From Candidatus Binatia bacterium (lineage in GTDB: Bacteria > Desulfobacterota > Binatia > Bin18): DNA of 64,000 nucleotides. The DNA lies in assembly GCA_022826945.1 (NCBI GenBank), contig JAJDTY010000027.1:1-64000 (forward strand), read 5' to 3'. The notes below the pieces were generated by a model, which did no database searches, was not told the DNA's origin, and worked only from the letters and a program-made list of their open reading frames with translations. Positions 56,443 through 61,902 of the stretch are shown here, piece after piece. A program made the position numbers and the translations under genes. The first letter of the stretch is position 1, and each line of letters opens with the position of its first letter.

Positions 56443-56475
56443 CCAAGACTAGGCGAGCAGGTGACAGGAACGACT

Positions 56476-58947
56476 ATGCCGATGACTGCAAAAACTGCAT
56501 CTTTGTTTGCTCTCTTCTTGTGTGTCGTCACCTGGCTCTCTGCGTCCCCAGGTCGTGCCGCAGTCGTGCCTCAGACAAGCGTTCAGGAGGATGGAATGGA
56601 AACACTGCGCGTCTCCGGTCTCCGCGAGTCGGTCGAAATCCTGACTGACCGCTGGGGTATCGCCCACATCTATGCCAAGAATCAGCGTGACCTGTTTTTC
56701 GCCCAAGGCTATAACGCGGCCCGCGACCGCTTGTTTCAGCTTGAGATCTGGCGTCGGCGTGTCACCGGCACAATGGCCGAAATTCAGGGTCCCAAAGCCC
56801 TGGACCGCGACATCGGAGCCCGGCTGCTGCGTTTTCGCGGTGATCTGGACCAGGAGTGCCGGTACTATCACCCGGACGGGAAAGAGATCATTACCGCCTT
56901 TGTTGAGGGCATTAACGCCTATATTCGGCAGACCCAGGAACAGCCGGACCTGCTGCCCCTTGAGTTTGGCCTGATCGGTATTACCCCCCAGGCTTGGACC
57001 ACGGACATCGTGCTGGCGCGTATCGGCGGTATTTTCCTGAATCTGGAAACCGAGGTTCTGATCGCCCAGGCGCTGCAAACCATGCAGCCCGAAACCATCC
57101 GGACGATGCTCCATTTACACCCTGGAACACCCGACCTGACCATACCCGAAGGGCTCGATGTGGCGGCCATTCCTAGCGATGTCCTGAAGTATTATCAAGC
57201 CGCGCGCGAAGCGGTTGCCTTTGCACCCGAAGACGTTGTTGATCCACGGTATCGTGCCCCGGAAACTCATGGAGTGACCACTCAGGCGGCCGCCCCGGCC
57301 TTTACCGGGAAGACCGTGTCGCAAGACGAGGGCAGTAATAATTGGGTGGTGAACGGTACCAAAACGCTTTCCCGACAGCCGCTTATGGTCAACGACCCGC
57401 ACCGGGCGATTACTGCGCCGTCACTGCGTTACTGGGTGCATCTGGTTGCGCCCGGTTGGAACGTGATTGGCGGAGGTGAGCCCCACCTGCCCGGCGTTTC
57501 CATCGGGCATAACGAGCAGGGGGCGTGGGGGCTGACGATTTTCCCGACCGACTCCGAAGACCTGTATGTGTATAAGACTAATCCGGACAACCCGCATCAG
57601 TATTGGTACCGGGGGGACTGGGAGGACATGCAGATTCTCCACGAGACGATCCCGGTGAAAGGCCAGGACGCTGTCGCGGTCGAACTGAAATACACCCGGC
57701 ACGGCCCCATCCTGGCCGAAGACCCGGGCCGGCACTTGGCTTTTGGGCTGCGGGCCGCTTGGCTCGATATCGGTGGGGTGCCGTATCTGGCCAGCCTGCG
57801 GATGGACCAGGCCAAAACCTGGCAGAAGTTCCGTGAGGCATGCGCATATTCCCGCGCCCCGTCAGAGAATATGGTCTGGGTGGACAAGCAGGGCAATATC
57901 GGCTGGCAGGCGGTTGGTGTTGTGCCGCTCCGGCCCAACTGGAACGGCTTGGTGCCCGTGCCGGGGGATGGACGCTTTGAGTGGGATGGCTATCTGCCGA
58001 TTCGTGAGCTGCCGCATGTCCTGAATCCTCCTGAGGGGTTTATCGCAACCGCAAACCAGGAGAACCTACCGCCCAACTATCCCTATCCAATCAGCTATTA
58101 CTGGCTGGAGCCCTACCGGTTTGCCCGGATTGAGGAAGTCCTTGCCGCAGGTAAAAACCTGACGGCCCGCGAGATGATGCAACTCCAGAACGATGAATAT
58201 TCGATTCCGGCACGTTTGCTGGTGCCGTTTCTGCGCGCTCTGGACAAGGACTGGGCGTCAACAGACCCGCTCGTCCAGGCTGCGCTCAACACGCTGTACG
58301 CCTGGGACTTCAGGCTGGACAAGGACTCCGTTGCCGCCGGAATCTATGCCGCCTGGCAGCGCCAGTTGTGGGAGCAATTTCGGAACACCCACGTCCCAGC
58401 CGCTCTCCAGGAGTCATTCGCGAGTATTGTTGTCACCCCGCTCATCAACAGCCTCCTCGCTCCAGATGGAAGCTACGGTCCTGACCCGCTCGCCGGGCGA
58501 GACCAATTCATACGTGAGAGTTTTAAGGCCGCCGTCCAATCTCTTGTCACCCGTTTTGGCTCGGACATGAACAACTGGACCTATGGCCAGACCGCCTATC
58601 ACCACATCGTCATCAAGCACATGCTGAGCGATGCGGTGAACGCCGAACTCCGAGCCCGACTCGATGTTGGTCCCATTCCGCGCGGCGGGGATAGCTTTAC
58701 GGTCAACAATACCGGCAGCGAGGACCTGCAGACCGTGGGGGCTTCTTTTCGGCTGATTGCCGACCCCAGTAACTGGGACCGGTCATTAGGCATCAATACG
58801 CCCGGACAGGCCGGTGACCCCGCCCAGGCGCATTATCGAGACCTGTCCGGCCTGTGGGCCGAGGGGAAGTACTTCCCCGTTCTGTATTCCCGAGACAAGA
58901 TTCTGGCGGTGACGGAACGCAAGATGCTGCTCCAGCCAGAGCCATAA
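56476..58947 (+). CDS. penicillin acylase family N-terminal-nucleophile hydrolase
   Basis: An 823-residue precursor exported by a signal peptide (LFALFLCVVTWLSASPGRAA). The alpha-chain region, a spacer and the autocatalytic site DEGSNNWVV are present; the nucleophile would be Ser287 at the start of the beta chain. Conserved SIGHNEQGAWGLT and ATANQENLPPNYPY follow. Family members cleave amide bonds in beta-lactams, acyl-homoserine lactones or lipopeptides; substrate unknown. ATG 56476 gives the best signal peptide; GTG 56461 is the alternative. Confidence 0.9.
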   Translation: MPMTAKTASLFALFLCVVTWLSASPGRAAVVPQTSVQEDGMETLRVSGLRESVEILTDRWGIAHIYAKNQRDLFFAQGYNAARDRLFQLEIWRRRVTGTMAEIQGPKALDRDIGARLLRFRGDLDQECRYYHPDGKEIITAFVEGINAYIRQTQEQPDLLPLEFGLIGITPQAWTTDIVLARIGGIFLNLETEVLIAQALQTMQPETIRTMLHLHPGTPDLTIPEGLDVAAIPSDVLKYYQAAREAVAFAPEDVVDPRYRAPETHGVTTQAAAPAFTGKTVSQDEGSNNWVVNGTKTLSRQPLMVNDPHRAITAPSLRYWVHLVAPGWNVIGGGEPHLPGVSIGHNEQGAWGLTIFPTDSEDLYVYKTNPDNPHQYWYRGDWEDMQILHETIPVKGQDAVAVELKYTRHGPILAEDPGRHLAFGLRAAWLDIGGVPYLASLRMDQAKTWQKFREACAYSRAPSENMVWVDKQGNIGWQAVGVVPLRPNWNGLVPVPGDGRFEWDGYLPIRELPHVLNPPEGFIATANQENLPPNYPYPISYYWLEPYRFARIEEVLAAGKNLTAREMMQLQNDEYSIPARLLVPFLRALDKDWASTDPLVQAALNTLYAWDFRLDKDSVAAGIYAAWQRQLWEQFRNTHVPAALQESFASIVVTPLINSLLAPDGSYGPDPLAGRDQFIRESFKAAVQSLVTRFGSDMNNWTYGQTAYHHIVIKHMLSDAVNAELRARLDVGPIPRGGDSFTVNNTGSEDLQTVGASFRLIADPSNWDRSLGINTPGQAGDPAQAHYRDLSGLWAEGKYFPVLYSRDKILAVTERKMLLQPEP

Positions 58948-60374: not shown

Positions 60375-60803
<429 letters not shown>

Positions 60804-60857: not shown

Positions 60858-61742
60858 CTACGGGACCAAAAGTTGGGCCAGCAATTGAAACTCATGTGCT
60901 CGGGGTGAGGTGGTCCGCCAGACAAGGCCGATGGTCCGACTTGGTTCGGGCTTCCGAAAAGGCAGAATAACGATCTGTGAAAGCTGCGGCGCTTCAACCT
61001 CTAACGAGAGCTGGGGTAAGAGGGTAATTCCGATTCCACCCGCGACCATTTGAATCAGGGTGTTCAGGCTGCTGGCGCGAAAGTCTCCAACCTCGTTGGC
61101 ACCACTGGTGTGACACACGGTCAGCACTTGGTCTCGCAATCAATGTCCATCGTCTAATAACAGCACCTGTTCACCGGTGATATCGGCCTCTGTTACGCGT
61201 TTCCGTTTAGCGAGCCTATGTCGTGCCGGGACCGCGACCATAAAAGGGTCGGTTGTCAGCGCCAAGGTCGATACGTTGCCGAGGTCGGCTTCGAGTGCCA
61301 CCAAGAGGAGGTCGAGCTTGCCGTGGGACAGCAACTCCAGTAGCCGGTGAGTCAGGTCTTCGTGCAGCCGAACCTGGAGCTGCGGGTAGTGCTGGCGCAG
61401 GGCTGGCAGCGTTTTTGGCAGGAAGTAAGGAGCTACGGTTGGGATCACCCCGAGCCGCAGGGTTCCAGAAAGGGGCTGGGTCAGGCTGCGGGCCAAGTCA
61501 ACGAATTCGTCACTTGCCATGAGAATATTGCGCGCGAGCGGCAATAGGGTCTCCCCGGCTGGGGTGAGAAGCACCGTGCGTTGGCTGCGCTCGAACAACT
61601 GTACGCCCAACAGCCGCTCAAGGTCCTTGAGCTGAGCGCTCAGGCCGGGCTGGGTGACAAAACAGGCATCGGCGGCGTCTCGAAAGCTTAGCCGCTCAGC
61701 CACAGCCACAAAATATTCCAGTTGCCGAAGGGACATATTCAT
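60858..61742 (-). CDS. oxyR: OxyR/LysR-type regulator with in-frame UGA at the peroxide-sensing cysteine (candidate selenoprotein)
   Basis: From ATG 61742 the frame encodes 200 residues, then TGA (61140-61142), then 93 more to the stop at 60858, about the length of E. coli OxyR. The N-terminal helix-turn-helix (residues 1-60) and regulatory domain are typical. OxyR has DGHCLRDQAMGFC with redox pair Cys199/Cys208; here it reads DDGH-UGA-LRDQVLTVC, so the UGA is codon 201 and the resolving Cys is 210, the same spacing. Downstream FRASSLNTLIQMVAGGIGITLLP and KPEPSRTIGLVWR match OxyR closely with no other lesion. I infer a selenocysteine peroxide sensor; a nonsense mutation is the alternative. 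Confidence 0.8.
61103..61126 (-). promoter_or_regulatory. candidate SECIS hairpin in oxyR
   Basis: Minus strand after the UGA: lower stem TGCTG/CAGTG (two G-U pairs), a three-base 5' bulge ACC, upper stem GTGT/ACAC, loop GTC. The loop begins 25 bases after the UGA with G first. A competing stem CACC/GGTG around AGT is also possible. Weaker than the rhodanese hairpin. Confidence 0.4.
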
Positions 61743-61777
61743 AGACAAAATTTATCATACGAGTAAAAGTTATCAAT
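61741..61777. promoter_or_regulatory. possible OxyR operator at the oxyR start
   Basis: ATAG, 7 bases, TTAT, 7 bases, GTAA, 7 bases, CAAT. This matches 12 of 16 positions of the OxyR four-block pattern ATAG-N7-CTAT-N7-ATAG-N7-CTAT with exact spacing. It overlaps the oxyR start codon and lies before the catalase relic. Confidence 0.4.
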
Positions 61778-61788
61778 TTTATTGTTAA

Positions 61789-61902
61789 GTTCCGCAGGAC
61801 ATTATCGACAAGCAGCTTGCGCATTTCGACAAGGCTGATCCCGCCTACGGGAACGGGGTACGGAAGGCGCTTGGAGTTGATTGGCACAAGGACGCCGCAT
61901 AG
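61789..61902 (+). pseudogene. catalase C-terminal relic
   Basis: An open stretch of 37 codons beginning after TAA at 61786 and ending TAG. It reads VPQDIIDKQLAHFDKADPAYG, then NGVRKALGV, which matches the very C-terminal end of monofunctional haem catalases (the HFxKADPxYGxxVAxALG pattern). Nothing else of a catalase is found nearby. It lies divergently beside the oxyR-like gene, as katA/katB genes often do, so a catalase gene was probably lost here. The rest of the 352-bp gap (61903-62093) holds a weak hairpin (AAGAGT/ACTCTT at 61951-61969) and no gene. Confidence 0.6.

Follow-up and report, generated by a model that had tools for sequence, protein, structure and literature searches.

This locus raises the question of whether a regulator gene that carries a stop codon in place of its sensor residue is a broken gene or a selenoprotein gene. 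In the window (the whole stretch of 64,000 nucleotides that was analysed), an oxyR-type gene of the LysR family occupies positions 60858..61742 of the minus strand. It has 294 codons and TAG as its final stop, and along the frame from 61742 to 60858 the sole internal stop is a TGA at 61140..61142 (minus strand). This TGA is codon 201, at the position of the peroxidatic (sensor) cysteine, and we interpret it as selenocysteine (Sec). A preliminary description of this DNA had stated that the LysR-type gene is full length in one frame except for this TGA, and our reading of the frame agrees. The flanks that it gave, DDGH-UGA-LRDQVLTVC, and its placing of the resolving cysteine at codon 210 stand as well, with Cys210 lying 9 residues past codon 201. 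The codon of Cys210, the equivalent of E. coli Cys208, is at 61113..61115 (minus strand), and H200, Q205, L207 and C210 are invariant across a 27-row alignment. On the comparative evidence given below, we consider it quite probable that the gene encodes a selenocysteine-containing OxyR. Judged from the sequences, such an OxyR very likely occurs in two or more lineages of a single class and would be a genuine new selenoprotein. In what follows, G000 is the genome of the window (4.7 Mb in 86 contigs, 90% complete and 5% contaminated, with the window on contig C39), G001 to G006 are six congeners, and G036, G108 and G126 are members of the same class from other families.

In order to place the gene, we compared its product with families and structures. 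The part before the UGA (61143..61742, minus strand) contains the HTH_1 domain at residues 5-64 and the first half of LysR_substrate, and the part after it (60861..61139, minus strand) contains the second half of LysR_substrate. Once the UGA is read through, PF00126 and PF03466 are both over cut-off in one chain. The stop splits PF03466 between profile positions 113 and 115 of 209, and the halves on either side of it score separately, as two parts of one domain. By sequence search the nearest solved relatives are OxyRs (6g1b, 7e-56; 1i6a, 6e-51). The fold predicted with AlphaFold2 (mean pLDDT 90.6, pTM 0.75) has the OxyRs of Corynebacterium glutamicum and Pseudomonas aeruginosa as its best Foldseek matches, and the reduced OxyR domain 1i69 matches it with a TM-score of 0.89 by target length. 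The window protein thus resembles E. coli-type OxyR (NF008361; 1i69/1i6a) in having a LysR HTH and a regulatory domain, in its predicted fold, in the GH-x-LRDQ...C motif with its 9-residue spacing, and in an identity of 46% to E. coli OxyR records. It differs in that the sensor codon is UGA and in that NF008361, its best NCBIfam family, gives 285.9 bits where the curated threshold is 329. With 269-288 bits, the G108 homolog and four Cys homologs also stay below this threshold, so the low score reflects distance from the model and not the UGA. Because of this score we use the name OxyR-type. The protein would have an OxyR sensor at the expected position only if the UGA is decoded as Sec.

Machinery for such decoding is present. 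Models of selA, selB and selD were over cut-off in all eight genomes tested (G000 to G006 and G036) and tRNA-Sec in seven of them, including G000 and G002, where ARAGORN gives the anticodon as UCA. All four components that the preliminary description had suggested looking for are therefore found in the source genome, selD as a fusion. The N-terminal part of this fusion in G000 and G002 is an oxidoreductase domain that exceeds the TIGR03169 cut-off. On the selD model the fusion reaches 306 bits, which is over cut-off, and its 479-488 bits on TIGR04369 ('fusion_not_SelD') fall short of the 700 required there. PMC2398784 and PMC4561486 report Sec-using bacteria whose Ndh-SelD fusions bear a CxxC motif, and the fusion of G000 has CGGC at this place. 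The Ndh-SelD fusion is the form of SelD in the window's genus (L154:262-2541, L155:262-2526). Across the class, selA was found in 123 of 148 genomes, G108 among them, and a selD gene with a TGA lies near selA in G036, G126 and G108. G108 has selA, selB and the TGA-containing selD adjoining selA; ARAGORN found no tRNA-Sec in the 19.9-kb selA/selD stretch of this genome.

Genes of a known selenoprotein family accompany the machinery. This family, UGSC (NF041046), has 7 matches in G000 (L230-L236), 6 of them over cut-off, and 54 matches in eight of nine genomes, with one TGA in each match; the remaining genome, G108, gave no UGSC match. Several UGSC selenoprotein paralogs are thus found within G000 itself. 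Formate dehydrogenase (TIGR01553) was over cut-off in none of eight genomes, with no stop inside the listed matches. When the neighbourhoods of sel genes were screened for conserved TGAs, the candidates listed were mostly shadow-frame noise, and the TGA-containing SelD of G036, G126 and G108 stood out.

Comparison with relatives at the sensor position favours the Sec reading. A search of 148 class genomes (E <= 1e-40) returned 34 matches in 31 genomes. Three of these bear a stop, a single TGA each, in G000, G002 and G108, and always at codon 201. None of the 34 matches has any other stop reported, and the search gave no fourth TGA-OxyR. G002 is another species of the same genus and its protein is 92% identical, and G108 belongs to another family of the class and is 61% identical. 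The Cys-OxyRs of the congeners G001, G003 and G004 (91-93% identical) and of G036 and G126 (72-74%) differ in having Cys at codon 201. At position 206 the Cys congeners have A or T and G000 and G002 have V; at 208 the residues are A or D and T, respectively. Among 36 homologs, consisting of 30 of the 34 class matches (the remaining 4 were left out) and six further loci (L033-L038), the sensor column has Cys in 33 and TGA in 3. The column bears out the earlier proposal that UGA replaces the peroxide-sensing cysteine, and it displays the alternation of Cys and UGA among related genomes that the same description had regarded as a check.

The tree of the 36 homologs places G108 apart from G000 and G002. 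The data reject a tree in which the three TGA forms make up one clade (AU p 1.71e-5). The tree needs two changes, so at least two exchanges between Cys and UGA took place. A stop could arise in oxyR through some 82 single-base changes, spread over some 73 codons, so the chance that a second random nonsense event falls on codon 201 is roughly one in 70-80. The listed contamination of G108 is 9%. Gene trees disagree with one another, and how similar oxyR of G000, G002 and G004 are to one another varies from stretch to stretch along the gene. This makes recombination between Sec and Cys alleles plausible, and we leave the older state unclaimed.

Wider searches were also made. In a phylum sample searched at E <= 1e-50, 4 of 395 genomes had a match, and only that of the window's genome had a TGA. 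Among 80 loci, most of them distant LysR proteins, none had a stop at the column; 8 had Cys and the rest other residues. A DNA pattern for GH-TGA-LRDQ-like sequence found 33 sites in 26 of the 148 class genomes. Of these, 20 loci were read (L156-L175) and 12 sites were left out of the reading; among those read only the G002 site has an oxyR location, the window's own site being the other oxyR match. A look-alike in G006 was rejected, as it is not within an oxyR. The DNA pattern missed G108, which the protein search recovered.

The reading frame beyond the TGA appears to be under selection. Between G000 and G002, dN is 0.040, dS 0.304 and dN/dS 0.13 before the TGA, and the corresponding values after it are 0.035, 0.256 and 0.14. 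Of the 23 base differences downstream of the TGA, 16 fall at third positions (P 0.0004 under neutrality); amino-acid differences there number 7, where neutrality predicts 14.3 (P 0.0011). The neutrality test presumes that the TGA is older than the split of G000 and G002; with two origins the test would be weaker and the coincidence stronger. The earlier statement that the 93 codons after the TGA are conserved and carry no other lesion is consistent with this dN/dS and with the lack of a further stop, the latter being uninformative in itself because half of the neutral runs also have none. G000 has 9 synonymous and 3 nonsynonymous private codon changes downstream of the TGA; those of G002, 1 synonymous and 3 nonsynonymous, are too few to weigh. 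For G108, the ratio of identity after the UGA to identity before it has a mean of 0.93 (25 comparisons) vs 0.99 with sd 0.08 in 223 Cys-Cys pairs, so the part behind its UGA is a little less conserved than the part in front.

These results bear on a simpler explanation, namely that the gene is a nonsense pseudogene in which the TGA ended oxyR function when the partner catalase was lost and the remaining frame has not yet decayed. The usual arrangement in relatives is a divergent katA-oxyR pair, as seen in G003, G036 and G126, with katA matched over its whole length in G003 (the query), over residues 1-487 in G036 and over residues 1-479 in G126. In the window, a remnant of the catalase gene katA encoding its last 37 residues (61789..61899, plus strand) adjoins oxyR. 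G004 retains the same last 37 residues with a similar junction, katA of G001 is internally deleted, and the stretches read of G005, G108 and G020 gave no katA match. The oxyR gene shows erosion in the genus as well: the match in G005 spans only residues 127-294, the first 126 being missing (L144, L009), and a search of the G006 genome found no close oxyR. The preliminary description had held that other lesions in relatives would speak against Sec, and on this point the 34 class matches contain no other stop, but oxyR of G005 is truncated at its N-terminus and G006 gave no close oxyR. The katA-oxyR module is dispensable in some sister species, which is the strongest argument for a pseudogene in G000, and a single lesion would suffice to make one. 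However, a pseudogene does not readily account for the same codon being affected in three genomes and at least two lineages out of about 73 stop-prone codons, G108 included, nor for the low dN/dS downstream of the TGA. In addition, G002 keeps katA beside its TGA-oxyR, open for 410 residues as far as the contig edge, and other UGA-Sec genes exist in G000. We keep the simple pseudogene as a rival, and the repeated position and the low downstream dN/dS make it improbable.

The remaining rivals differ in how they explain a TGA within a gene. Sequencing or assembly error, or contaminating DNA, would be conceivable because the assemblies are mostly fragmented and carry some contamination. However, a read error is unlikely given that the TGA recurs at this codon in two other assemblies, and oxyR of G000 and G002 differ at about 9% of bases; we regard this as the least probable of the explanations. 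Reading of the UGA as an amino acid other than Sec, by a suppressor tRNA or a recoded stop, seems hardly more probable. Any read-through would explain selection on the frame, but it is precisely a redox Cys that is replaced, the Sec machinery is present, and TGA serves as an ordinary stop in G000, where it ends selA and 2 of 13 genes near oxyR. In four stretches of G000 it also closes 16 of 54 open frames with 350 codons or more, these being mechanical frames whose gene status was unchecked. A further possibility is that the gene has two products, with termination giving a truncated DNA-binding OxyR, Sec insertion giving the full sensor, and the supply of selenium setting their ratio. Decoding of UGA as Sec in bacteria competes with termination, and the whole HTH domain lies before the UGA. 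Against this, truncation halves the regulatory domain and the short product may be unstable. We consider two products rather unlikely, though less so than a pseudogene; they would be a refinement of the Sec-OxyR explanation and are not exclusive of it.

The surroundings of oxyR have some further features. Since katA is a remnant in G000, the adjoining katA cannot be an OxyR target there. G004 has a Cys-oxyR yet its katA is truncated like that of G000, which points to recombination or repeated change. Upstream of oxyR, within an AT-rich stretch that by eye is similar in G000, G002, G003 and G004, lies the near-palindrome GATAAATTTTGTC at 61744..61756 (minus strand), a possible operator judging by eye. 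The near-palindrome stops one base short of the oxyR start codon, which leaves little space for a usual ribosome-binding site. On the other side, oxyR adjoins a small clan AA aspartic protease-like gene at 60387-60803 (plus strand; TIGR03698 over cut-off), which was called solely in the G000 and G004 stretches. A large protein encoded at 56461-58947 (plus strand) has a weak match to the acylase PvdQ (58 bits vs a cut-off of 950).

Returning to the proposed selenocysteine, we looked at the RNA downstream of the UGA. A candidate bacterial SECIS hairpin lies at 61101..61132 (minus strand), with the 5-nt apical loop CGUGU at 61115-61119, and it can form in G000, G002 and G108 alike. The preliminary description had placed a hairpin 25 bases downstream with G at the start of the loop; the hairpin can indeed form, whereas its loop is 20 nt after the UGA and the G is at loop position 2. 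Constrained local hairpins have energies of -9.0 (G000), -9.0 (G002) and -10.6 (G108) kcal/mol. All three fall within the bSECIS limits given in PMC13188914, which are a loop of 3-9 nt, a stem of 4-16 bp, G in the first two loop bases, a spacing of 16-37 nt and MFE <= -7.5. G000 and G002 form 11 of 11 hairpin pairs, and five Cys forms 5 to 9. Loose SECIS rules were rejected as a discriminator, as the Cys forms also satisfy them and TGA and Cys forms are not separated.

A more specific comparison is to the UGSC selenoproteins of G000, which likewise have one in-frame TGA followed by a 5-nt-loop hairpin about 18 nt after it. They differ from OxyR in not being regulators and in having stems that are mostly longer and uninterrupted. 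We read UGSC elements in 34 of 40 fetched loci (20 distinct elements, out of 54 existing matches), the other 6 loci having been removed by our filter. In the genus these elements carry the loop NG[GU]NN, with AGUGU as the commonest form, 18 nt downstream of the UGA. A rule modelled on them, which was drawn up after the oxyR hairpin had already been seen, passes 19 of the 20 distinct UGSC elements, all 3 TGA-oxyRs and 2 of 32 Cys-oxyRs, and so separates TGA from Cys forms better than the loose rules. Of 271 arbitrary TGAs taken from a single strand of 18 kb of G001, it passes 4. Synonymous shuffles pass the same rule in 16% of cases for G000, 16% for G002 and 36% for G108, and shuffles as stable as the hairpin make up 25%, 4.7% (borderline) and 52%, respectively. 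In longer windows G000 (at least 66 nt) and G108 (at least 54 nt) prefer other folds, and G002 retains the hairpin. A covariance model of the SECIS elements of the UGSC genes of the genus gave no match at any oxyR UGA (E <= 10, 18 sources). The oxyR hairpin is thus compatible with a SECIS element and lends weak support to Sec insertion, not proof.

The preliminary description knew of no selenocysteine OxyR, and our search of open-access literature on selenocysteine with OxyR or LysR, on Binatota with selenium, and on selenoprotein families likewise found none among the titles and abstracts listed. A table published in 2026 covers 119 families of prokaryotic selenoproteins, most of which its authors regard as redox proteins, and it has no LysR or OxyR protein (PMC13188914). 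Term searches within PMC13188914, PMC9312934, PMC12013277 and PMC2398784 gave no OxyR either. Two described systems come closest. LysR_Se/HrsM is a selenium-linked member of the LysR family, but PMC9312934 describes it as a regulator of selenium metabolism and not as a selenoprotein. NF040786, which judging by the names is perhaps this family, gives the window's OxyR 142.5 bits against a cut-off of 250. A putative FmdB-family selenoprotein is also called regulatory, but it belongs to another family and has a UxxU motif instead of being a LysR regulator (PMC13188914).

The mechanism that we propose is as follows. SelB and Sec-tRNA(UCA) would decode the UGA at codon 201 as selenocysteine and so give a full LysR-type regulator of 294 residues. 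In the reduced protein Sec201 would be present as selenolate, which H2O2 would oxidise to a selenenic acid, and this would condense with Cys210 to a selenenylsulfide. The regulatory domain would then rearrange and transcription would change, as with the Cys199-Cys208 disulfide (described in PMC3953959) of well-studied OxyR. The same source notes that signalling phosphatases are far slower to react with H2O2 than the Sec of glutathione peroxidases. What we infer is Sec insertion, the redox chemistry, a gain in speed or reversibility of sensing, and the target genes.

More tentatively, a full-length Sec-OxyR may be made only when selenium is available, so that one regulator would integrate H2O2 and selenium supply, and selection may have switched OxyR from one residue to the other, Cys or Sec, two or more times within one class; we regard this as a possibility that is somewhat doubtful as yet. 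Should Sec-OxyR be confirmed in protein, it would place selenium chemistry inside a gene switch, beyond enzymes alone. The use of selenium over sulfur in nature is debated. If the reading is true, this genus would offer natural Cys and Sec forms of one sensor, more than 90% identical, in which rate, over-oxidation and reversibility could be compared.
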